Shown piece after piece: positions 40,087 to 59,414 of a stretch of 64,000 nucleotides of DNA (within the stretch, counting starts at the first letter, position 1; each line of letters opens with the position of its first letter). Below the pieces are notes generated by a model. The model searched no databases and was not told where the DNA came from. It saw nothing but the letters and a program-made list of their open reading frames with translations. Location of the stretch: the NCBI RefSeq assembly GCF_000022485.1, contig NC_012623.1:1700501-1764500 (forward strand), given 5' to 3'. The DNA comes from Sulfolobus islandicus Y.N.15.51. GTDB lineage: Archaea > Thermoproteota > Thermoprotei_A > Sulfolobales > Sulfolobaceae. Made by a program: the position numbers and the translations under genes.

Positions 40087-40911
40087 ATGCAGAGAACTAC
40101 AATCTCATTCCTTAGGTGGATAGTTCCGTTGTCATTATTCTGGGGTTTTGCCTTCCCTTTAACTAAAATAATTGCCTACTCAGCATCGCCCATGATCATT
40201 AGTGCATTTAGAGTTGGGATAGCTGCAATTTTCTTTCTCACTCTAGGGAAGGGGTTATCAGTGGGTAAGAAACAATTTGTAAATGGCTTGCTTAACTTCG
40301 CGTTCTTCTTAATTCTCATAAATCTTGGAATTGGGTTATCTACAAATCCAGGTTTAGTAGCGGTAATGATATATACACAACCAATTTTTGTTCTGATAAT
40401 TGAAAGGTTACTGGGTTATAAGATCACACCTAAAGGGATTATCGGAGTAGTTTTAGGAGTAATTGGAGTAATATCTTCAGCAACCTTATCATTTGATATT
40501 GGGTTGGTTTTCGGATTGTTGGCTGGGATATTATGGGCTGTAGGTACTATTTATTACTCCAGAAATTTAGCTAATGAAAACATCGCTAAACTTAACGCAT
40601 TTATGGCCCTAACCTCAGTTCCCATAGTCCTAGCTTTTACTCCAATCGACTACTATTTCAAATTTAGCCTAGTTACACTATCCTTAATTTTACTTTTAGC
40701 TATCATAGCCCAAATTCTAGGATTTTACTTCTGGTTTAATGGAGTTAGGGAATTGGGAACCGTTTACGCAAGTACTGGGTCTTTATTAGTACCAGTAATG
40801 GCTTACGTTACCAGTTTCGCCGTGTTGGGCGTAATCCCAACGTTATTCCAGATAATTGGCTCCGTGATAACCCTATCTGGAGTTTACCTTACCATTACCA
40901 GTAGAAGTTAG
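40087..40911 (+). CDS. EamA/DMT-family transporter
   Basis: 274 residues, ten helices in two EamA repeats (WGFAFPLTKIIAYSASPMII .. and GILWAVGTIYYSRNLANENI ..). Exports or imports small metabolites in relatives. Its last 39 bases overlap the convergent helicase gene. ATG 40087 has an AT-rich box about 25 bases upstream. Confidence 0.88.
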   Translation: MQRTTISFLRWIVPLSLFWGFAFPLTKIIAYSASPMIISAFRVGIAAIFFLTLGKGLSVGKKQFVNGLLNFAFFLILINLGIGLSTNPGLVAVMIYTQPIFVLIIERLLGYKITPKGIIGVVLGVIGVISSATLSFDIGLVFGLLAGILWAVGTIYYSRNLANENIAKLNAFMALTSVPIVLAFTPIDYYFKFSLVTLSLILLLAIIAQILGFYFWFNGVRELGTVYASTGSLLVPVMAYVTSFAVLGVIPTLFQIIGSVITLSGVYLTITSRS

Positions 40912-42873
40912 TTTATAGAAATTGATTAGACTGCTATAGGCTATAAGAAGAGAATTTAATTTGACTAACTTCTCATCTTTGAGGTCATAATAATTTATTT
41001 GGATTTTAGGATTCACAGTAACTGAATCAACACTAGCTGAGATTAAGATTTGAGCTAAAAGACCATTTCCAATCTTGCTCATATGAACCTCAACATTATA
41101 ATCTTTTCCCTCCAATTCTTTCTCATACTTACTTTTCTTTTCGCTTAACTCTTTCATTACCTCGTTTAAATTACTTGAGAGGAATAGCTTCATGAAAGGC
41201 CTAAGAGAACTTTTTCTGTCTAGTTTAATATTTCCTTTTTTCCTCAATAAAATCTCTCCAATTTTCTTATACTCACTATTACATAACCTTATGTAAGTCT
41301 CTCCAAAACCTATATTACAATAACTACCTAATAACACTTGACTAGCTAGCTTTCCCATCATCTCTTCATCGTAATAGTACAGCGCTTTCCCATCTCTCAA
41401 TGTCCTATCAATATATTCGTCAACATGTGACTTACTTTCATTTGATTCAAGTAATGAGAGTAATGAGAGGTTACTCTTCTTTTTTGTATCGTCTATCTGA
41501 TTGATTAAGACTTGTCCACCGCTTTTGTTAATAATTTCTACTACCCTAGCAACTGGTCCCTTATCTTCCCTCTTATCAATAAGGTAACTCACATCTACTC
41601 CTTCTAAGTAAAGATTTCTTAATGCCTCATCTAGATTATCATATTCTGAAGTCTTTGGGGTCAACGTTACAACTAAATATTTTATAGCTGACTCTCCTTC
41701 CTCTTTTTCCTTTCCTCTTATTAATCTTCCCAATCTTTGATAGAACCTTAATGCACTCTGAGGCACGTCTGTCATTATTAATAATTTAGCTTCCGGTATA
41801 TCAATTCCCTCTTCTCCTACAATTGTCGATATTAGAACGTCAATTTCTCCTTTTCTAAGATTTTGTACGACTTTTAACCTCTCATATCTAGATGAGTCTC
41901 CGGTTATTACTTTTACCTTCCCTAGATCAGAGATAGCCCTTTCGAATTCATACGCTGTTGACTTCCTGGAGGTAAATATTAGCACTGGTTTAAATTCCTC
42001 AACTCTATAAATATTTAAGACGCTTCTTAATGCTCTAGCTTTGTGACTTAAATCCTTTGAATCGCAAATTGAATCAATGTAAGGACTCTCCTCTACTTTC
42101 CCAATTAATCTTCTATAGCTTTCACAGAAAGCTTCTTTGCCATAAGTATAGAACGTGAGTTCTAAGAACTTAATCGTTTCCTTATTTCCTTTTATTAATC
42201 CCTTGAAGAAGGCCTCGTAGACTGAATCCTCTAAGTTGTTAAACTCTGAGTCGAAAATATCAGCTATTGCCTTAGGGAGTTTAAAGGACGGATCTATTTT
42301 AGTAAGGCTCTTGAAGTCATAGACTAAATACTCGGGTTGACCTAATAACTTAATTAAACGGGGGTCTATAAGATACTTTTTATAAGAGGGTAGTAACGCA
42401 GTAAACCCTATTAAAAATCTAGGCTCTAAATTTACTAATATCTCCTCGTATCTAGCATCTCCAAAGGCATGATGTACCTCATCAATTATCATTGCTTCTG
42501 CCTTGTCTAAACATTTGGCTGTTGTAAATGGAGTTGATACTATGATTTTCTTGCCTTTTTCAAAGGACTCACAATTTCCCTCATACTCTACGCCAACATT
42601 ATCACCGAAGACCTTCCTCCAGAATCTATGATACATTTGGTCACAAAGAAGCCGAGTGGGTTCTAATACAATTATATTATTAACCTTGTTAATTAAATGA
42701 TAGGCAACGGATAGTTCGATTAGTGTTTTCCCGCTACCGGTAGGCATTGAAATTATAATGAACCGCTTTCTATCAAGATTTTTCTCTATTTCTTCACTAA
42801 TATACTTTTGATAAGGGTAAGTTTCGATGCCAAGTCTCTCCCTAACTAGCTTATTTAAATCATCCAATGGCAC
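40873..42873 (-). CDS. SF2 DEVH-box helicase
   Basis: 666 residues. Walker A SMPTGSGKTLIE (about 43-54), Ia VLEPTRLLCDQ, DEVH box IIDEVHHAF (about 130), VLIFTSRKSTAYEFER, VLISTIVGEEGIDIPEA and motif VI RFYQRLGRLIRGK. The two RecA lobes are separated by a ~130-residue insert (about 170-290), as in the Hef/XPF-like and FANCM-type helicases, followed by a unique ~230-residue C-terminal region without nuclease motifs. DNA repair/branch processing is likely by family. Confidence 0.85.
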   Translation of the reverse strand: MPLDDLNKLVRERLGIETYPYQKYISEEIEKNLDRKRFIIISMPTGSGKTLIELSVAYHLINKVNNIIVLEPTRLLCDQMYHRFWRKVFGDNVGVEYEGNCESFEKGKKIIVSTPFTTAKCLDKAEAMIIDEVHHAFGDARYEEILVNLEPRFLIGFTALLPSYKKYLIDPRLIKLLGQPEYLVYDFKSLTKIDPSFKLPKAIADIFDSEFNNLEDSVYEAFFKGLIKGNKETIKFLELTFYTYGKEAFCESYRRLIGKVEESPYIDSICDSKDLSHKARALRSVLNIYRVEEFKPVLIFTSRKSTAYEFERAISDLGKVKVITGDSSRYERLKVVQNLRKGEIDVLISTIVGEEGIDIPEAKLLIMTDVPQSALRFYQRLGRLIRGKEKEEGESAIKYLVVTLTPKTSEYDNLDEALRNLYLEGVDVSYLIDKREDKGPVARVVEIINKSGGQVLINQIDDTKKKSNLSLLSLLESNESKSHVDEYIDRTLRDGKALYYYDEEMMGKLASQVLLGSYCNIGFGETYIRLCNSEYKKIGEILLRKKGNIKLDRKSSLRPFMKLFLSSNLNEVMKELSEKKSKYEKELEGKDYNVEVHMSKIGNGLLAQILISASVDSVTVNPKIQINYYDLKDEKLVKLNSLLIAYSSLINFYKLTSTGNGKVNSR

Positions 42874-42936: not shown

Positions 42937-43247
42937 ATGTTTCCATTGCAAATTATAATATTCTCTACGAAAAGGTTTGAAGCCAATATTGATAAAGAAT
43001 ATGAGGCTGAATACTTTGGACTAAAGGTATACGTCACAATAAAACCCAATTTAGATGAATTAGATATTTACGAACCTTACGTATTCTTAACTAATAAAAA
43101 ACCCAGACTGGGATTAAAGATGAGCTAAATTTTAATAGAGACCCTTACGAGACTAGGATAACACAGCTAAATGAGAACAGACAGAACTTTATACTTTCAA
43201 TTTTAGAAAAATATTACGTAAAACTTACTTTAAAACTAAAGACATAG
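42937..43247 (+). pseudogene. Small unknown protein, one base out of frame
   Basis: The first frame reads MFPLQIIIFSTKRFEANIDK to a stop at 43128; the next frame continues DELNFNRDPYETRITQLNEN .. EKYYVKLTLKLKT to TAG 43245-43247. One A added to the AAA run near 43117 joins them (~103 residues). Family not recognised. Divergent from the helicase with a 63-base spacer, and the first of three tightly spaced small genes. Confidence 0.5.
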
Positions 43248-43250
43248 TTA

Positions 43251-43541
43251 GTGATTAAGGACCCTTCCATATTTGAAAATACAATATATATAATAAAATC
43301 GTTAAGATATTCACATTTGGTTTTAAGGACTTCGAAGTTGTCCCTAAGTGAAATGATTAGTTATTTGCCATTCCTTCTTAGCGGTCTAGATAAATCCAAA
43401 GATTTAATTAAGACATTAAAGAAGTTCCATGACGCAGTAGAAGAAGAAGGAGCAGATTTTGACCTTATTAAGAAAGAAATTGAAAATCTGGGCTGGTATA
43501 ATATAAAGTTGTCTACTAAACCGATCATAAAAGATGAATAG
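43251..43541 (+). CDS. Unknown small protein
   Basis: 96 residues from GTG 43251 (MIKDPSIFENTIYIIKSLRY), helical, with LSEMISYLPFLLSGLDKSKD. It starts three bases after the preceding stop and overlaps the next gene by 8 bases, so the three form an operon. Unrecognised; could be a HEPN-like helical protein but no motif supports that. Confidence 0.5.
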   Translation: MIKDPSIFENTIYIIKSLRYSHLVLRTSKLSLSEMISYLPFLLSGLDKSKDLIKTLKKFHDAVEEEGADFDLIKKEIENLGWYNIKLSTKPIIKDE

Positions 43542-43733
43542 AGGATATAAAAAGTTTAAGAATTTTCTACAATTGAATGAGAAATTAGGAGGTCTTGCTG
43601 AACTGTTCACACATCTTATGATTTCTATTATGTATTTTTATGAAATCAACGGCTATGATTATGTTACACCTCCTACTGTTGCAAACATAGGCTTGTTAGA
43701 GGCATGGCATGTAATGCCTATATCCGTGAATTT
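43534..43733 (+). pseudogene. Unknown small protein, truncated by IS110 end
   Basis: From ATG 43534: MNRGYKKFKNFLQLNEKLGG, LAELFTHLMISIMYFYEING, then VANIGLLEAW before the IS110-like sequence begins at about 43735. The frame runs on to 43800 in transposon DNA (HVMPISVNF..), which is not part of the gene. Partner of the two genes before it. Confidence 0.5.
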
Positions 43734-43736
43734 TAT

Positions 43737-43782
43737 CACAATGTTCAGTCCGACGGTAGGGGAGCGTCACGCTCTTGCCCGA
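43737..43782 (-). mobile_element. IS110 copy 1-type left-end remnant
   Basis: On the minus strand GTCACGCTCCCCTACCGTCG then GACTGAACATTGTGATAAAA and TTCAC matches 1847-1885 of IS110 copy 1 nearly base for base. Only this ~45-base end is present; no transposase. CCTATATAGG occurs nearby (43844-43859 region), as at the ends of copy 1. Confidence 0.6.
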
Positions 43783-43800
43783 AGACTTAGCTTCAGTTAA

Positions 43801-43842
43801 GGGGTCGGCCATACCCCAGCCGAGGAGAGTATTACTCTCCCC
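43801..43842. other. Two-hairpin, pseudoknot-like motif
   Basis: GGGG (43801-43804) pairs with CCCC (43814-43817); TCGGC in its loop (43805-43809) can pair with GCCGA (43819-43823); GGAGAGT (43824-43830) pairs with ACTCTCC (43834-43840). Same layout as 9595-9630 at the TnpB fragment with different bases at the paired positions. Best read as an end structure of a lost IS200/605-type element or its RNA. Confidence 0.5.
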
Positions 43843-43961: not shown

Positions 43962-44537
43962 CTAAACCATATATTTCAACAAACCTCCATCATCACTTAC
44001 TTTACTGTATAAATCTAACAAATAACTAGGAATTTCAATCTCTCTACTAGTAACGCTTTTTGCTATAACGAACTTAAAACCCCTAGCACTCTTCACCAAC
44101 TTAATCATAGAGTGAGAAGTGTGTGAACCGAAAATCGAACCCTCTCTTTCCCTATCCATAAAACTGAACAAGAACTTCCTACTCCTAACTTTCCTCAATG
44201 ACGAGACGATCTTAGTGTAATTCTTTCTATGATGATAAGGATCAATAACTATTAAGTCGTTATCTCCCATTGAATCTATAGTAATTGGCACATCTTCAGC
44301 CTTGAAAGCCCTCCTTATATATACTTCAGCGTGATTATCGAAAACGTTTTGAAAACGCCCAATTAGGTAAGGATCTAATCCACCCCTTTCGGAAACTACT
44401 ACAACGTAAACTGGGGCTGAAATGGCTATAACCCTATGATAGAAAATTCTCAACAAATCGTAATCAGTTGAGAAGAACTCCACAATATCGTCCCTCTTTA
44501 TTATCTCGTCTAGAAAGGGAAAGCCAGTAGTTAACAT
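43962..44537 (-). CDS. RecA-fold protein without Walker A (inactivated RadA-like), PolB2 partner
   Basis: 191 residues. MLTTGFPFLDEIIKRDDIVE resembles the TGxxxLD start of RadA-like proteins; APVYVVVVSERGGLDPYLIG and NDLIVIDPYHH follow the Walker B strand, but there is no GxxxxGKT. So it has the fold but not ATP binding. The ATG overlaps the polB2 stop (ATGTTAA), so the two are translated together. Inactive RadA relatives linked to inactivated PolB are known in archaea; the role is probably in damage-induced synthesis, by analogy with the bacterial ImuA partner. Confidence 0.7.
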   Translation of the reverse strand: MLTTGFPFLDEIIKRDDIVEFFSTDYDLLRIFYHRVIAISAPVYVVVVSERGGLDPYLIGRFQNVFDNHAEVYIRRAFKAEDVPITIDSMGDNDLIVIDPYHHRKNYTKIVSSLRKVRSRKFLFSFMDREREGSIFGSHTSHSMIKLVKSARGFKFVIAKSVTSREIEIPSYLLDLYSKVSDDGGLLKYMV

Positions 44538-46216
44538 CTAGAGATCACCTCTTCCACGTCGTCATAAACCCTCCTCAGGTAATTGATGTAGTAATTCACA
44601 TCTCTTCCCATATAACCTAGTCTAGCGTCATAGAAACCTTTAATTCCCCTCACGTAAGGAACGCCCTTAATCCATATAACGTAATCTATTGGCTCACCGT
44701 TTATGGTCCTCTTTCTATACTTCTCATACAAATCCCTAATCCTAACCTTTTTAACATCAGAACAAGTCCTAGTTAATGAAAGCCCCCTTAATACGTCTTT
44801 CAAAAACGACTTAACAATGTTTGGCATGTTCTCCCTTATTAAACCCTTAGCGATTATTTCACCATTCATGTTTGCAATATATCTTGTAGGATATGGTGTG
44901 TCATTTTTGGTAGTAGTAAAGATAATCCAATTGTAACGTTTGTGATCCAGTCTTAGCCCCGTTTCTTTCTCGACCCTCTCAATGAATTTATCAATGTTAT
45001 CCCCCTTAACAACTAGTGAATCTATTATACTGTGTAAAACCTTCAACCCCATCTCCTCGGCAATCTCCATTGTCCTCCTTAACGTTTTCCTAGCTAAATA
45101 TGTGACCATTTCGTAAGCCTCAATCTTCCCAAACAAGGAATTCCTATAACCTAGATAGCCAAAAGAGGCAACTAAAATCCACTTTATTGCCTCAGCCCTC
45201 TCCTTGTCAATTCTCTTCAGCTCTGATTTTCTCTTTATCAACCACTCTAAGGCTTCTGGTATAATTCCCTTTTCCCTTAAGCAAATTGAATGCAGTTCCG
45301 TTTTTATATCATCACAAGCGTCAACGGTTTCAGCTGAAATGTTGTATTTTACAATCAAGGAGGGGTACATTGAAGAGAAGTCAACTTGATAAACGTTATC
45401 GTAACATCCGGGCTGTGGGAAGAGTATTAATCCTCCCTTATCCGCCATCATTATATTCTCTAACCTTCTCAACTTCTCAACTCTTGGAACAATTTTAGGT
45501 ATGATTATTCTCCTCTTAAACGCAACCCAAGCCTCATTTGTAGTTAAAACTTTACCAATCGTTGCGTAGGCTATCTCGTGAAGTGGGGTAAGTGAGATTA
45601 GGGACCACTCTATTAAACCCTTAGCTGAAACTGGAGATCTCTTCTTCTCAATCCTAATCTTAACGTTTGACTTCACGTAATTACACGCTTCTCCTAAACA
45701 TTCAGTGATATCAGCCTCAACTTCGGGTTTTTCGTAAAATCTCCTAACCTCGTTATTTATTTTAACTTCAAACACTTTCCCTTTTAACGATTCGCCATAC
45801 CAATCTAAAGGTACAACTTTCGCAATGGTTACCTTTGGGAATTCGTCATCGGAAGAGTTTAGTCTCCTAAAGGGCTTTATCCCTAGGCGGTATAGCGTTT
45901 GTGATAGTACTGTTGGTGTTTCGTTCACGACGTTTAGCCTTTTCCTCATGTAATAATAAGCGTCAAAGGATTCAACCTCAAAGCGGTAAACTTTAGCCTC
46001 TTTTCCATTCAACGTTTTCCATTTTTCCTCTTCGTAATATTTCACTTCTGGGTGTTGTAGTACTACATCGGGGTTATCTGTTATGGCATAAACTGGGAAC
46101 GTTGTTCTGATAATTTTCTCCTTGAAATTGCTTAGGAATAGCTTCACTCCTCCTTTGACCGGATAAGCGTCAAGTACGTACTCCTCCATTTCTCGCATTC
46201 CTCCGCCAAAGCCCAA
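44531..46216 (-). CDS. polB2: B-family DNA polymerase PolB2 (Dpo2), altered active site
   Basis: Up to 561 residues, shorter than PolB1 because the exonuclease part is reduced. Motif A is VDFSSMYPSLIVKYN (usual DYxSLYPS); motif B is KWILVASFGYLGYRN (usual Kx3NSxYG, here A-S for N-S); motif C is LHSIIDSLVVKG where the usual YxDTDS is H-S-I-I-D-S, so one catalytic Asp is absent. This is the hallmark of the Sulfolobales PolB2 group. Overlaps the upstream small gene by 73 bases; a start at a later ATG (46198 or 46189) would reduce this. Damage-inducible in known relatives. Confidence 0.88.
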   Translation of the reverse strand: MGFGGGMREMEEYVLDAYPVKGGVKLFLSNFKEKIIRTTFPVYAITDNPDVVLQHPEVKYYEEEKWKTLNGKEAKVYRFEVESFDAYYYMRKRLNVVNETPTVLSQTLYRLGIKPFRRLNSSDDEFPKVTIAKVVPLDWYGESLKGKVFEVKINNEVRRFYEKPEVEADITECLGEACNYVKSNVKIRIEKKRSPVSAKGLIEWSLISLTPLHEIAYATIGKVLTTNEAWVAFKRRIIIPKIVPRVEKLRRLENIMMADKGGLILFPQPGCYDNVYQVDFSSMYPSLIVKYNISAETVDACDDIKTELHSICLREKGIIPEALEWLIKRKSELKRIDKERAEAIKWILVASFGYLGYRNSLFGKIEAYEMVTYLARKTLRRTMEIAEEMGLKVLHSIIDSLVVKGDNIDKFIERVEKETGLRLDHKRYNWIIFTTTKNDTPYPTRYIANMNGEIIAKGLIRENMPNIVKSFLKDVLRGLSLTRTCSDVKKVRIRDLYEKYRKRTINGEPIDYVIWIKGVPYVRGIKGFYDARLGYMGRDVNYYINYLRRVYDDVEEVISRC

Positions 46217-46410
46217 ATTAGCGTAAAGTAAACGAGGTTATAGGGATCAATGAGTTCGTCATAGGATGCACTTTGAGTATACCTTACTTTTTCCTTAACT
46301 CTTTCTAGTAAAAGGGATAATGTGGGAGAATGTAAGCGCTCTATAATTCTTTCAAGCTTTTCTAACTCTCTATTAACTGCCATGGTGTATGATGGCTGTG
46401 TTCTTCCCAT
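46144..46410 (-). CDS. Small helical protein, first gene of the PolB2 operon
   Basis: 88 residues: VNRELEKLERIIERLHSPTL, SLLLERVKEKVRYTQSASYD and LVYFTLIWALAEECEKW. No motif recognised. It precedes and overlaps polB2. An equivalent small ORF accompanies polB2 in other Sulfolobales operons. Starts at ATG 46410; leaderless spacing from TAAATTAAG. Confidence 0.7.
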   Translation of the reverse strand: MGRTQPSYTMAVNRELEKLERIIERLHSPTLSLLLERVKEKVRYTQSASYDELIDPYNLVYFTLIWALAEECEKWRSTYLTLIRSKEE

Positions 46411-46430
46411 GTGATATATCTCTCCCTTGG

Positions 46431-46462
46431 TAAATTAAGTCTTTAGAGAGAACACCGAAAGT
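46431..46462 (-). promoter_or_regulatory. PolB2 operon promoter with a damage-response hexamer
   Basis: On the minus strand ACTTTC (46457-46462) fits the ANTTTC hexamer known upstream of UV-inducible Sulfolobus promoters. It lies in ACACTTTCGGTGT, a partial palindrome, and is followed by CTTAATTTA (46431-46439), a TATA-like box about 25 bases before ATG 46410. Order hexamer, TATA, start agrees with the described arrangement. Confidence 0.6.
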
Positions 46463-47051
46463 GTAGGTTTTAGCTTTTGTAGCTAGATATTAGGAAGATA
46501 ATATCTTAAAGAGAGTATTATCTTTTGATTACAGAAGGAAAAAGTTTCGATAAGGTGTGACAGTCTGTCCTTTCGAAATGAGTAACCACCCTTCTTCTAG
46601 TATATAATTATGATGAATGAGTTTGCAATCATAAAGCTCATCATTGACCAACTTAATTTGTTGAAATGAAAGTACTTATGGATATTACTTTTTATTTTTC
46701 CGGAAAAGACTGAGATGCTAGAGATTAAAGGTAAAATCTTAAAACGTCGAGAAGATAATTATATACAGCTGATAATAATTTAGAGCTTTCCAATGCTAAC
46801 AAGATGCCTATTAGCGTTAATGACATTTCACATGACGCTGTCCAACTTGAGTAAAATTGAAAAATTATCTTGACTATAATATTTCTTTCCATATAATTAT
46901 TCATTATATTCAACTAGAAAAGATTATATAATATGTATTAACAAATATAATACAAAGAATTGTACAGTTTTGCAATAAAATTTGTTATACTCACAACTAA
47001 AACTAGTAAGCAAGCCTTGTTAATTAACTAGTACCCTTGTCCTAATCCTCG
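46463..47051. other. Intergenic region, no gene recognised
   Basis: AT-rich. A 62-codon minus frame at 46725-46913 has no convincing start, composition or neighbour support. ATGATGA at 46611 looks like a box C of a C/D sRNA but no matching D box follows at a suitable distance. Confidence 0.4.
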
Positions 47052-47400: not shown

Positions 47401-47540
47401 ACCGTTTGTCCCTACACTTTCATTTCAATCATTTTATGTTCATTCATGATCGAGTGTAGGGACTTAGCCCTCAACCACCTTATAGGTGGGTCATGGGACT
47501 CATTTGAGCCCAACGGCACGGGGCTCACATCTCCAGCCCT
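47401..47540 (-). ncRNA. Candidate omega RNA / right end of IS607 copy 1
   Basis: Past the TnpB catalytic region the minus strand contains GTCCCTACACT pairing perfectly with AGTGTAGGGAC over a ~35-base loop, and CCACC/GGTGG (47480s). TnpB guide RNAs in IS200/605 and IS607 elements come from this end, overlap the tnpB 3' end, and read their guide from the flank just outside, here 47399 downwards. The stem is conserved in copy 2. Confidence 0.5.
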
Positions 47541-48635
47541 CTTCGCTAAGTTGTACAGTGCAACTACATCCCTATGCCACTTTTCCTTCCCCTTCTCACA
47601 AACACCAACCCTTGGGGCATCGCCCCCATCGAGTTGGTAAACGATCTTCGCCCCATGAACTGGGCAAACAGTGGAAGTATAAGATGGATTAACTAAGACC
47701 ACGGGGACACCAAACTCCCTAGCCTTCTCAATAATAGCATTCTTCATTGAGGAAAATGCAGATCTATAAATCCTCAACCTAAGTTGTTTATCCTTAATAT
47801 CCTTTATCATATGCTCCGGAGTTCTCCTTGGCAAGTCCTCTAAAACTATGACACTCCTACTTTCAAAAGCCTCTTTAACGATCAGCTTAGCTAATTTCCT
47901 CCTAATGTCTACTTTCTTATCCCTCTCCCTCAGCCTCTTTAACTTCCTCCTCACTTCCCTATCCTTAGTTGACTTACCAGTGATTGTCAACTTCCTCCTA
48001 TACTCATAGCCCAGAGTAATCCTCCTAGTGTTAGTCTCTAAAAGCATCGGTTTTCCATCAACTAATACAGAGACTGAATTCTCATTTAGATCAACTGGGA
48101 TGAAACCCTTAGGTTCATAAGGTTTAACATCTCTCTTAAAAATGACGTAGAACTCTACAACATTTCCCTTCATCAGCCTAAACCTGGCCTCACTCGCAAT
48201 CAACCAACCCTTATTATAATATCTCCAGAAGATCTTAGGGAAGGTTGGTGAAATGAAAACCCTACTCCTCTTTGTGGAAATTGAAATCGTGTCGAGGCTG
48301 AACTTCCATAAGTGATCATCCAGGTGAATAGTAACTCTCCTCACTGACGGTTTCTCAGTGTAACTCCTACCTCTCTTCTTCAACTTCTCAAAGCTATCCA
48401 ACCTCTCGCTTGCGTCCTCACAAGCTGTGTAAATATAATGGGAGGGTAAGTCCTTATGTTTCTCCCTCTCAGTCTTGTAAACTCCAGCTTTAATCCTGGT
48501 GAAGGAGGTAGTTTTGTTTGACAGCCCATAATTTATTGCGTCCTCTAGAACCTCTCTGTACTCCTTCTCGACCTCCTTAAGTGCTGAGTATGTAGAATAG
48601 TCAACCTTAACCCTTAACTTCACTGTCCTCTCCAC
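47412..48635 (-). CDS. tnpB: TnpB RNA-guided nuclease (IS607 type, intact)
   Basis: 407 residues. RuvC-type active site in three pieces: FIPVDLNENSVSVLVDG (Asp, about 180), RSVIVLEDLPRR (Glu, about 265), KWHRDVVALYNLAKRAG (Asp, about 358), with a zinc ribbon from TSTVCPVHG to GVCEKGKEK between. Known TnpB proteins cut DNA with an omega RNA, favouring element retention. ATG 48635 overlaps the end of tnpA by 29 bases. Confidence 0.9.
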   Translation of the reverse strand: MERTVKLRVKVDYSTYSALKEVEKEYREVLEDAINYGLSNKTTSFTRIKAGVYKTEREKHKDLPSHYIYTACEDASERLDSFEKLKKRGRSYTEKPSVRRVTIHLDDHLWKFSLDTISISTKRSRVFISPTFPKIFWRYYNKGWLIASEARFRLMKGNVVEFYVIFKRDVKPYEPKGFIPVDLNENSVSVLVDGKPMLLETNTRRITLGYEYRRKLTITGKSTKDREVRRKLKRLRERDKKVDIRRKLAKLIVKEAFESRSVIVLEDLPRRTPEHMIKDIKDKQLRLRIYRSAFSSMKNAIIEKAREFGVPVVLVNPSYTSTVCPVHGAKIVYQLDGGDAPRVGVCEKGKEKWHRDVVALYNLAKRAGDVSPVPLGSNESHDPPIRWLRAKSLHSIMNEHKMIEMKV

Positions 48636-49248
48636 TTAACTCACCTATTAACTTTTTTACACCTTGAACTAGGAGTGTTTTCTTGTGACTCTTCATTCCG
48701 TAAATTTTCCCAGCGAATGAGGTAATGATGTAGATTAAGTCCTCAACTAGCTCTTGTGCGTCATCTTTGGGCTCCTCACCGAAAACTACTTCAATCTTAA
48801 CTCCCATGGTTGAGAAGAACTCTTCAATGTACTCGAAGCCGAACCTTGTAAGTCTGTCTTTGTGTGTTATTAATACGATGTCGACACTCCTTCCCTCAAC
48901 AAGTTTGAATAATTTAAGCAATCCTTTTCTTTGTGTGTTTAACCCGCTTGCAATATCTTTCAGTACTTCAACTACCTTGTAACCTTTTGCCGTTGCGTAA
49001 TTTGTTAGGTAGTTTATTTGTCTTTCCAAGTCCTCTTTTTGATCGGTAGAGGAGACCCTAGCGTAAATTACAGCCCTCGTCTCTTCCCTCCTTTCTAAGT
49101 ACTTCTTTATCTCGCTGTAAGGTATCCTATACTTCCCTCCTTCAGTTGTTACTACCCTTATTTTTCCTTCTCTAATCCACCGTAGGAGTGTTGAGTATGA
49201 GATGCTGAGTAGTTGGCAAGCCTCCTTAGGTCTCAGTAGTCTCTCCAC
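48607..49248 (-). CDS. tnpA: TnpA serine recombinase of IS607
   Basis: 213 residues. N-terminal MerR-like helix-turn-helix (LLRPKEACQLLSISYSTLLR) and a resolvase catalytic domain with AVIYARVSSTDQKEDLERQI (Ser66/67) and THKDRLTRFGFEYIEEFF. This order, DNA-binding first, is typical of IS607. Promotes insertion without target duplication. Differs from copy 2 at a few residues only. Confidence 0.92.
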   Translation of the reverse strand: MERLLRPKEACQLLSISYSTLLRWIREGKIRVVTTEGGKYRIPYSEIKKYLERREETRAVIYARVSSTDQKEDLERQINYLTNYATAKGYKVVEVLKDIASGLNTQRKGLLKLFKLVEGRSVDIVLITHKDRLTRFGFEYIEEFFSTMGVKIEVVFGEEPKDDAQELVEDLIYIITSFAGKIYGMKSHKKTLLVQGVKKLIGELSGEDSEVKG

Positions 49249-56459: not shown

Positions 56460-57674
56460 CGGTAGACCCAAAATCATATTAGAAAAAATATTTCTGATAG
56501 GATAATATCGAACTTATAAAAGATAAAGAAATTTATAAGAGTATAAAGAATTCAATTGAAGAAAGGGTTTAAGGTGAGGGAGATTGAGTATTACCACGTG
56601 AGTAAGTGAGATGGTAACACCCGGTCTCCCTCACCAAAATAACATTCAACAAATAGGATATAAATTACTTTCCATGCTGAACTTCAAGGGAAAGAAAGGG
56701 GAAGAGGTGGCGAGAACCCTCATCTCAGCGTGTCTATGGAACGATTCGGTGGAAAGCAAGTCGAGGGCGTATGGCGTGTCCCCACAGACCGTGAGGAATT
56801 ACGTGGAGGAGCAAGGGGTGGAAGTTATTGAGAAACTCTTGGAAAGCGCCAGGAAGATATCCTTGAAGGTACTGAAGGGAGTAAGGGAGATAGACGTCTC
56901 AATAGACTGGACAACCAAGACCTGGTACGGGAGACCGGTGGGAGGGCTCGGGAGTTCGGAGGAGGGAAACTCTTGGAACTACGCAACTGCGACGACAAAG
57001 TTTAATGGGAAAGTGCTCCTACTGGCCTTCGTCACTCAAGTCAAGGGGATGACTAAGGAAGAGATCGTGAAGGCCCTCGTGGAGCAAGTCGTCGCGATGG
57101 GGTTCAAGATAAGGTTGATAACTCTTGACGCTGGTTTCTACACTGTTGATGTGCTCAATTTCATTTCACAGTTTAAGTATATAGTTGCTGTGCCTGTTGG
57201 GGACGTTAAGGTTTATGAGGAGTTTGACGGGGATTACACAACTAATAGTAAGAGGCATAGGAGGGATGAGCAGGTCAAGTTCAGGCTTCTCGTGTACAGC
57301 AAGGAAAAAGTGAGGAGAAAGAGTCTTGTTTATTTTGCTAGGGCTACTAACCTAGACCTATCCAAGAGGGAAGTGTTGGATTTGTATAATAAGGTAAGGG
57401 GTCCCATAGAGACCTCTTATAGGAACATTAAGGCTTTTCTTCCATTCACCAGTTCCACCAAGTTTGTTTTCCGCACGTTGATCTTCGTGCTGGCCCTTGT
57501 ACTCTACTCCTTATATACCATATTCAAGGGGGAGGTGGGGAGAGAGGAGTTTAGATTATTATTAATTCTTTTATTTCCTGATTTATTCAATCCAGAGAAT
57601 TTTACATTTAATATAATTGAAACACTTATTTACACTATAGATTTATTTTTAAGGAGGTGATTTTGGGTCTACCG
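56460..57674 (+). mobile_element. ISH3-family IS, copy C (1215 bp, TSD AACA)
   Basis: Terminal repeats as in copy A/B (CGGTAGACCCAAAATCA at 56460, complement ending 57674). The flanks repeat AACA (56456-56459, 57675-57678). It lies in the tnpB 3' end of IS607 copy 2. Confidence 0.88.
56611..57660 (+). CDS. ISH3-family DDE transposase (copy C, intact)
   Basis: 349 residues beginning MVTPGLPHQNNIQQIGYKLL; DDE residues in VSIDWTTKTW, ITLDAGFYT and GPIETSYRN. The C-terminus (FPDLFNPENFTFNIIETLIY) matches copy A, not copy B. It appears fully active and could mobilise copies A and B in trans. Confidence 0.92.
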   Translation: MVTPGLPHQNNIQQIGYKLLSMLNFKGKKGEEVARTLISACLWNDSVESKSRAYGVSPQTVRNYVEEQGVEVIEKLLESARKISLKVLKGVREIDVSIDWTTKTWYGRPVGGLGSSEEGNSWNYATATTKFNGKVLLLAFVTQVKGMTKEEIVKALVEQVVAMGFKIRLITLDAGFYTVDVLNFISQFKYIVAVPVGDVKVYEEFDGDYTTNSKRHRRDEQVKFRLLVYSKEKVRRKSLVYFARATNLDLSKREVLDLYNKVRGPIETSYRNIKAFLPFTSSTKFVFRTLIFVLALVLYSLYTIFKGEVGREEFRLLLILLFPDLFNPENFTFNIIETLIYTIDLFLRR

Positions 57675-58801
57675 AACAGCACGGGGCTCACATCTCCAGC
57701 TCTCCTCGCTAAGTTGTACAGTGCAACTACATCCCTATGCCACTTTTCCTTCCCCTTCTCACAAACACCAACCCTTGGGGCATGGCCCCCATCGAGTTGG
57801 TAAACGATCTTCGCCCCATGAATTGGGCAAACAGTGGAAGTATAAGATGGGTTAACTAAGACTACGGGGACTCCAAACTCCCTAGCCTTCTCAATAATAG
57901 CATTCTTCATTGAGGAAAATGCAGATCTATAAATCCTCAACCTAAGCTGAGAGTCTTTCACGTCCTTTATCATATGCTCTGGAATTCTCCTTGGCAAGTC
58001 CTCTAAAACTATGACACTCCTACTTTCAAAAGCCTCTTTAACGATCAGCTTGGCTAATTTCCTCCTAATGTCTACTTTCTTATCCCTCTCCCTCAGCCTC
58101 TTTAACTTCCTCCTCACTTCCCTATCCTTAGTTGACTTACCAGTAGTTATTGCCTTCCTCCTATACTCATAGCCCAGAGTAATCCTCTTAGTGTTAGTCT
58201 CAAGCAATAAGGGTTTACTGTTGATGAGCACCGAGACCGAATTCTCGTTAAGGTCGACGGGAATAAACGCTTTAGGCTCATAAGGTTTAGGCTCATCCCT
58301 CTTAAAAATGACGTAGAACTCTACAACATTCCCCTTCATCAGCCTAAACCTGGCCTCACTCGCAATCAACCAACCCTTATTATAATATCTCCAGAAGATC
58401 TTAGGGAAGGTTGGTGAAATGAAAACCCTACTCCTCTTTGTGGAAATTGAAATCGTGTCGAGGCTGAACTTCCACAGATGATCGTCGAGGTGAATAGTAA
58501 CTCTCCTCACAGACGGTTTCTCAGTGTAACTCCTACCTCTCTTCTTCAACTTCTTAAAGCTATCCAACCTCTCGCTTGCGTCCTCACAAGCTGTGTAAAT
58601 ATAATGGGAGGGTAAGTCCTTATGTTTCTCCCTCTCAGTCTTGTAAACTCCAGCTTTAATCCTGGTGAAGGAGGTAGTTTTGTTTGACAGCCCATAATTT
58701 ATTGCCTCCTCTAGAACCTCTCTGTACTCCTTCTCGACCTCCTTAAGTGCTGAGTATGTAGAATAGTCAACCTTAACCCTTAACTTCACTGTCCTCTCCA
58801 C
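57635..58801 (-). pseudogene. TnpB of IS607 copy 2, truncated
   Basis: 388 codons but only those upstream of the ISH3 junction (about 57675) are TnpB; the last residues (GRPKITSLKINL) are read from ISH3. The catalytic Asp, Glu and Asp and the zinc ribbon are all still present (ending ..WHRDVVALYNLARRAGDVSP), so about 25 C-terminal residues are replaced. Several silent and conservative changes separate it from copy 1. Confidence 0.85.
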
Positions 58802-59414
58802 TTAACTCACCTATCAACTTTTTTACACCTTGAACTAGGAGTGTTTTCTTGTGACTCCTCATTCCGTAAATTTTCCCAGCGAATGAGGTAATGATGTAGA
58901 TTAAGTCCTCAACTAGCTCTTGTGCGTCATCTTTGGGCTCCTCACCGAAAACTACTTCAATCTTAACTCCCATGGTTGAGAAGAACTCTTCAATGTACTC
59001 GAAACAGAACCTTGTAAGTCTGTCTTTGTGTGTTATTAATACGATGTCGACACTCCTCCCCTCAACAAGTTTGAATAATTTAAGCAATCCTTTTCTTTGT
59101 GTGTTTAACCCGCTAGCTATATCTTTCAGTACTTCAACTACCTTGTAACCTTTTGCCGTTGCGTAATTTGTTAGGTAGTTTATTTGTCTTTCCAAGTCCT
59201 CTTTTTGATCGGTAGAGGAGACCCTAGCGTAAATTACAGCCCTCGTCTCTTCCCTCCTTTCTAAGTACTTCTTTATCTCGCTGTAAGGTATCCTATACTT
59301 CCCTCCTTCAGTTGTTACTACCCTTATTTTTCCTTCTCTAATCCACCGTAGGAGTGTTGAGTATGAGATGCTGAGTAGTTGGCAAGCCTCCTTAGGTCTC
59401 AGTAGTCTCTCCAC
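58773..59414 (-). CDS. tnpA: TnpA serine recombinase of IS607 copy 2 (intact)
   Basis: 213 residues, identical layout to copy 1: HTH (YSTLLRWIREGKIRVV), catalytic YARVSSTDQKEDLE. Differences from copy 1 seen at RFCFEYIEE versus RFGFEYIEE and YGMRSHKK versus YGMKSHKK. Could serve either copy in trans. Confidence 0.92.
   Translation of the reverse strand: MERLLRPKEACQLLSISYSTLLRWIREGKIRVVTTEGGKYRIPYSEIKKYLERREETRAVIYARVSSTDQKEDLERQINYLTNYATAKGYKVVEVLKDIASGLNTQRKGLLKLFKLVEGRSVDIVLITHKDRLTRFCFEYIEEFFSTMGVKIEVVFGEEPKDDAQELVEDLIYIITSFAGKIYGMRSHKKTLLVQGVKKLIGELSGEDSEVKG

Follow-up and report, generated by a model that had tools for sequence, protein, structure and literature searches.

The window analysed here, a stretch of 64,000 nucleotides from Sulfolobus islandicus Y.N.15.51 (contig NC_012623.1, positions 1,700,501 to 1,764,500), contains an operon that very probably encodes the archaeal translesion mutasome of PolB2 (Dpo2). 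On this reading, DNA damage would act through Orc1-2 bound at an ANTTTC promoter element to give one transcript, from which PolB2, an inactive RadA (iRadA) and a trimer of the small protein PPB2 would be made, together extending mismatched or lesion-blocked primer ends. The three genes lie on the minus strand in the order ppb2, polB2/dpo2, iRadA (Table 1). Since the ends of PolB2 and the residue numbering of Orc1-2 agree with S. islandicus, the trio very likely corresponds to operon SiRe_0614-0616 of S. islandicus REY15A (now Saccharolobus islandicus), the published mutasome. The two share the same genes, the same gene order, the N-terminal MGRT of PPB2, the IID of PolB2 motif C and an inactive RadA (PMC11791011, PMC10470591). 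The damage induction of that operon has been published. Furthermore, 21 of the 22 N- and C-terminal residues of the published S. islandicus Dpo2 peptide (MREMEEY...YLRRVYDNVEEVISRC) are identical in the window, while one differs (PMC8100216). We found no difference of substance between the two systems, although an extended promoter element, considered below, is not described for the published one in the papers examined.

The PolB2-PPB2-iRadA system is not new. Makarova et al. 2014 (PMC4104785) described how PolB2, arCOG07300 and an inactive RadA are linked, and a heteropentamer of one PolB2, one iRadA and three PPB2 subunits was modelled in silico by Timinskas et al. 2025 (PMC11791011), where the parallel to Pol V was drawn. 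A preliminary description of the window, made from its sequence, had proposed a co-regulated, PolB2 mutasome-like operon. The trio and its damage-response promoter stand and agree with the published system, whereas the puzzle it saw in the altered active site, the clamp role it considered for the RecA-fold protein and its ImuA parallel, beyond an analogy, do not.

The coupling of the three genes through overlaps, noticed in that description, was recovered, with the frames in the same places and overlaps of 55 nt between ppb2 and polB2 and of 7 nt between polB2 and iRadA. For polB2, a TTG at 46216 that opens a 561-aa frame in the mechanical list of open reading frames was dropped in favour of the ATG at 46198 (MREMEEY...), because an in-frame TGA lies just upstream of the MEEY start in close relatives and because this is the published Dpo2 start; S. 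islandicus Dpo2 is reported with 555 aa and the N-terminus MREMEEY (PMC7390963; PMC8100216). Comparison of the window with three relatives, whose PolB2 is 90-92% identical, gave dN/dS values of 0.05-0.14 across ppb2, polB2 and iRadA (0.05-0.08 for ppb2), consistent with purifying selection, and all three mutasome genes are therefore maintained.

Table 1 Features of the mutasome locus and its promoter (window coordinates)
Feature	Coordinates	Strand	Basis or remark
ppb2 (arCOG07300), 88 aa	46410-46144	(-)	start MGRT; small protein, helical by literature prediction
polB2/dpo2, 555-aa B-family DNA polymerase	46198-44531	(-)	PF00136 1.3e-12; 5mdn profile 4.5e-36; AF2 fold
iRadA, 191-aa Rad51/RadA-fold protein without Walker A	44537-43962	(-)	AF2 model, structural matches
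ANTTTC damage-response element ACTTTC, -52 to -47 from ppb2 ATG	46462-46457	(-)	sequence; relatives; Orc1-2-bound element (PMC9738581)
Proposed extended bipartite element ACTTTCGGTGTTCTCTCT (consensus ~ANTTTCRGTTNACTCTCT)	46445..46462	(-)	orc1-2-trained matrix score 11.0, 0/2000 shuffles
TATA-like box ACTTAATTT, 22-30 nt before ppb2 ATG	46432..46440	(-)	sequence; position kept in close relatives
PolB2 residues 241-255, low-confidence loop ending at D253-K254	45434..45478	(-)	published iRadA/PPB2 contact site (PMC11791011)
PolB2 motif C HSIIDS, residues 389-394	45017..45034	(-)	Ile in place of the first Asp; second Asp (D393) retained
iRadA residues 19-27 VEFFSTDYD at RadA P-loop position	44457..44483	(-)	model and alignment
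iRadA C-terminal tail ...GLLKYMV	43965..43991	(-)	degenerate PCNA-binding-like tail

PolB2 was assigned to the B family based on its match to Pfam DNA_pol_B, on a profile of 21 Sulfolobaceae sequences that matches solved B-family polymerases, and on an AF2 model (pLDDT 84.7) that superposes on S. solfataricus PolB1 (1s5j) with Z 22.3 and rmsd 5.5 over 481 residues. In the alignment of motif C, YGDTDS of the solved polymerases faces HGIIDS in the family consensus and the HSIIDS of the window. The preliminary description had thus read the loss of a catalytic Asp correctly; it is the first Asp that is missing, in all 21 Sulfolobaceae PolB2 sequences aligned, while D393, the second, is invariant. 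This loss, together with the inactivity of the RadA partner and the euryarchaeal linkage to orc genes (PMC4104785), would fit a proposal of 2014, founded on the lost first Asp and on arORC2 linkage, in which PolB2 has no catalytic activity and the three proteins act structurally or as regulators when replication is initiated or origins are recognised. That proposal is already largely refuted and we consider it highly improbable here. In purified form, Dpo2 of S. islandicus equals the replicase Dpo1 in activity, extends mismatches and has no proofreading; its retained second motif C Asp binds metal, the substitute for the first being debated (PMC8764526). Dpo2 is moreover the sole damage-inducible polymerase, and targeted mutagenesis requires dpo2 (Feng et al. 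2020, PMC7390963). In the window, PolB2 keeps motif A (DFSSMYPS) and the second Asp of motif C, and its motif B region (KWILVASFGYLGYR) is likewise conserved. How a polymerase with such an altered site could work, left as a question in the preliminary description, is answered, as far as activity is concerned, by this published activity and metal binding.

As a working polymerase of the mutasome, PolB2, with no proofreading and a relaxed motif C, would extend mismatched or lesion-blocked primer ends, as shown by the published biochemistry, and the outcome would be survival at the cost of targeted mutations. Conserved sequence marks of the published system were also found: the D(K/R) motif is present, with D253 and K254 invariant in the 21 sequences, and residues M1, G2, R3 and T4 of PPB2 are invariant across 16 sequences. 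Inspection of the C-terminal tails of PolB2 and iRadA revealed no clamp-binding motif of the QxxLxxFF type.

The third protein, iRadA, gave no convincing Pfam or NCBIfam family match, and its sequence profile returned zero matches among PDB sequences even at E 10, so that its kinship with RadA rests on structure and on published HHpred results. The AF2 model, obtained from a 17-row alignment (pLDDT 83.8), aligns to Dmc1, Rad51 and RadA with Z 16-18 and rmsd ~2.5-3.0 over 165-181 residues (best Foldseek E 4e-7), covering the RadA/Rad51 cores from their residue ~79-101 onward; the N-terminal domain is absent. The position of the RadA P-loop reads VEFFSTDYDLL and contains no Walker A. These results bear out the earlier identification of a RecA-fold protein without Walker A. 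Conversely, the suggestion that this protein serves as a clamp disagrees with the published model, in which it is a PolB2-binding subunit, and a clamp-binding tail is found in some species only. A GLxKW[LI] tail is near-universal in Sulfolobaceae iRadA and loosely resembles QVGLTSWL, with which P. furiosus PolB (3a2f) binds the clamp, but lacks the Gln; the window reads GLLKYM, and clamp binding by the tail would here be a guess.

The structural matches could also be taken to indicate a filament-capping or loading factor, similar to the eukaryotic Rad51 paralogs, that would deliver PolB2, at post-replicative gaps, to RadA filament ends. Besides Dmc1 and Rad51, the best of them include XRCC3, RAD51C, RAD51D and XRCC2 complexes capping Rad51 filaments, and iRadA is devoid of the N-terminal oligomerisation domain. 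However, all Rad51-fold proteins score similarly (Z within 2), without singling out the paralogs, and the RadA-type docking face is taken by PolB2 in the published models (PMC11791011). We regard such a role as unlikely, and rather expect iRadA to be a structural adaptor, neither ATPase nor recombinase, within the single enzyme that the PPB2 trimer, one iRadA and PolB2 would form according to published models.

Upstream of ppb2, the ACTTTC hexamer and the TATA box pointed out in the preliminary description were both recovered, the former matching ANTTTC. The distance of the TATA-like box from the ATG would fit a leaderless or nearly leaderless transcript. ANTTTC is bound by Orc1-2, which is needed for Dpo2 induction (PMC9738581), and 4-nitroquinoline 1-oxide (NQO) induces SiRe_0614, SiRe_0615 and SiRe_0616 by 21.3-, 25.6- and 22.3-fold, respectively (PMC10470591). 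Both the induction of the trio by NQO and the dependence of Dpo2 synthesis on Orc1-2 have thus already been shown in the same or a sister S. islandicus strain (PMC10470591, PMC9738581). The source genome encodes Orc1-2 itself (G000, C1:1290581-1291819, minus strand); if a TTG is taken as its start, K72, G127-L128, R353 and R381 match the published numbering (PMC9738581). The arrangement resembles that of the Orc1-2 regulon, whose DNA damage-responsive element (DDRE) is a hexamer upstream of the B recognition element (BRE) and TATA box, and the genome also encodes orc1-2, which has an ANTTTC in its own promoter. Across Sulfolobaceae, ANTTTC occurs at -100 to -36 in 34 of 36 mutasome-gene promoters, compared with 17% per promoter in shuffles, and starts at -60 to -40 in 26 of the 36, compared with 6% per promoter in Markov-shuffled controls; the genomes are related, hence these counts are not independent. 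ANTTTC before the mutasome genes exceeds chance.

Damage, which is published to raise Orc1-2 activity, would thus lead to binding of Orc1-2 at the element before ppb2, given the hexamer seen here and the hexamer binding published for other promoters of the DNA damage response (DDR). The overlaps of the genes and their published joint induction suggest that a single overlapping message would then yield PPB2, PolB2 and iRadA. Three points weigh against the mutasome reading of the window. The complex and its stoichiometry are those of published models, the functional evidence comes from other S. islandicus strain(s) and not from this one, and an S. islandicus LAL14/1 strain lacking dpo2 showed no NQO sensitivity, so that it is disputed how much PolB2 matters to the cell (PMC8100216).

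We then compared the locus across 31 Sulfolobaceae genomes. All three genes are present in 29 of them and all three are absent from two (G003 and G012, both at least 99% complete), which retain orc1-2. The two joint losses are informative events, and the trio is tightly linked in function. One gene lies outside the operon in seven genomes. In four Metallosphaera-group genomes (G006-G009), ppb2 is found far from polB2-iRadA (loci L033-L036 and L012, L014, L017 and L019, respectively) and the detached PPB2 is more divergent (MGRTIPSYT); iRadA is on the other strand in three further cases, divergent in G018 and G019 and convergent in G004. ANTTTC was found upstream of every separated ppb2, every polB2 that had become a first gene and every separated iRadA. 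These broken-up operons constitute a natural experiment that backs co-regulation without laboratory data. Scanning viral contigs with the PolB2 and PPB2 alignments revealed no virus-borne copies, and the plasmids scanned contained only remote PolB relatives (<60% identity, many of them haloarchaeal) and no PPB2 matches.

Conservation at these promoters extends beyond the hexamer. In each of the 29 orc1-2 promoters examined, RG follows ANTTTC, and a CTCTCT-like block comes next at constant spacing; the promoter of orc1-2 in the source genome carries AGTTTCGGACTACTCTC. A position matrix of bases 7-18, that is, the 12 bases after ANTTTC, was derived from orc1-2 promoters only and applied behind ANTTTC in the mutasome promoters. 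It fits 28 of 35 of these at p<0.01 and is positive in nine of 11 genus representatives, with a mean score of +6.2 at shift 0 and of -9.9 or lower at all other shifts from -5 to +5; the shuffled controls leave the shared ancestry of the promoters in place. Two ppb2 promoters (L007 and L013) keep CTCTCT though the exact hexamer is missing at that place. Taken from sequence, these observations suggest that the damage element is longer than ANTTTC, measuring ~18 nt, or about three times the published length. The conserved block begins near -52, counted from the inferred start site, in mutasome as well as in orc1-2 promoters, whereas the published ups-type hexamers are located at -44 to -39 (PMC5817253). 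The extended element is not described in the published mutasome and Orc1-2 literature examined; the 2018 Orc1-2 footprint study (Sun) falls outside that scope and may show it.

One possible explanation, which we put forward tentatively and hold at somewhat below an even chance, is that Orc1-2 recognises, at orc1-2 and mutasome promoters alike, a bipartite element of 18 bp composed of ANTTTC, a fixed spacer and CTCTCT. The winged helix would read ANTTTC and the initiator-specific motif (ISM) would read the CTCTC half, its candidate contact, in the manner of Orc1 initiators on the two parts of an origin box, and wherever the operon is broken up the element would stay with the mutasome genes. The place where the ISM domain of Orc1-2 contacts DNA was called unknown in a 2022 paper. 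Several observations count against a bipartite site. Among the separated polB2 promoters, only one of four matches strongly beyond ANTTTC (L014), the matches in L012, L017 and L019 being weak. Since the orc1-2 element shares sequence with the end of an upstream reading frame, its conservation could in part be that of coding sequence. Finally, tfb3, a known DDR gene, and one secretion ATPase gene (possibly upsE) have the hexamer with a poor second half.

It is about evenly poised, if just short of that, whether the element is instead the ANTTTC hexamer only, with the CTCTCT half reflecting a constraint of the core promoter (BRE/TATA) or shared promoter ancestry and not a second Orc1-2 contact. 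The hexamer is the element as published (PMC5817253, PMC9738581), the CTCTCT half lies directly before BRE/TATA, and much of that half is missing at tfb3. Against this stand the prediction of mutasome promoters by the orc1-2 matrix at a single register and in most genus representatives, the retention of CTCTCT without the exact hexamer in place at L007 and L013, and the occurrence of the CTCTCT half also before the separately located Metallosphaera ppb2 copies.

When 0-1 mismatches were allowed, a scan of the source genome for the extended element yielded five sites. Three of them stand before frames, namely orc1-2, a zinc-ribbon frame and a truncated ppb2, and the other two fall on or within the edges of unrelated genes; because some of the sites were known when the pattern was defined, their match is no independent test. 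At up to 3 mismatches, 84 sites were found vs 77 for a reversed-pattern control, and the extended element alone therefore cannot define a regulon. The only perfect match to ANTTTCGGTYTACTCTC (L043:1501-1517; G000:C1:1475423-1475439) lies before a small CxxC zinc-ribbon frame of unclear start codon, a candidate damage-induced gene. At L037 (G000:C1:246821-246837, minus strand), the almost perfect ACTTTTGGTTTACTCTCTAAGCTTATTT is followed by a truncated second ppb2 (~24 matching residues, MGRTQPSYTYSLQREIEKLERII...), which appears to be the remnant of a second mutasome locus and has no counterpart among 30 related genomes.

Among bacterial systems, E. coli Pol V (UmuC-UmuD'2-RecA) is alike in combining an inducible error-prone polymerase with a small oligomeric partner and a RecA-fold partner. 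It differs in having a Y-family polymerase, a catalytically active RecA and, in UmuD', a cleaved LexA-like protein; its polymerase and small subunit are non-homologous to those of the mutasome. The polymerase in the window belongs to the B family. The ImuA-ImuB-DnaE2 parallel drawn in the preliminary description serves as an analogy, both being damage-inducible cassettes in which an error-prone polymerase is paired with a RecA-like protein, but the closest parallel in the literature is Pol V. ImuA-ImuB-DnaE2 contains the C-family DnaE2 and the Y-family-like clamp adaptor ImuB, whereas the RecA-fold protein in the window is accompanied only by one B-family polymerase and the small helical protein of 88 aa.

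The surroundings of the operon include a 666-aa superfamily 2 helicase at 40873-42873 (minus strand; ResIII/Helicase_C, with a weaker XPB C-terminal match). On the strand opposite to iRadA and downstream of it, 42937-43800 holds three short frames, overlapping or adjacent, none of which matches Pfam; they look like the remnants of a broken gene, the last entering a G+C-rich stretch at ~43740-43840. Two two-gene elements of the IS607 type, each with a serine resolvase bearing a helix-turn-helix and a TnpB-like protein, lie at 47412-49248 and 57635-59414 (both minus strand). The former, whose distance upstream from the mutasome promoter is ~950 bases, contains a Cas12f1-like TNB domain (PF07282), while the latter was assigned by layout only. 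No Rfam family matched within the window.

The operon is a known archaeal counterpart of SOS mutagenesis, and its finding here is a confirmation. To this we add the joint presence and absence of the three genes, the ANTTTC at the separated genes and what looks like a longer element with a fixed register. If Orc1-2 does read a bipartite site in the way that an origin box is read, this would help to explain how an initiator-derived protein was turned into a stress regulator, and the bipartite reading names the base pairs to mutate.

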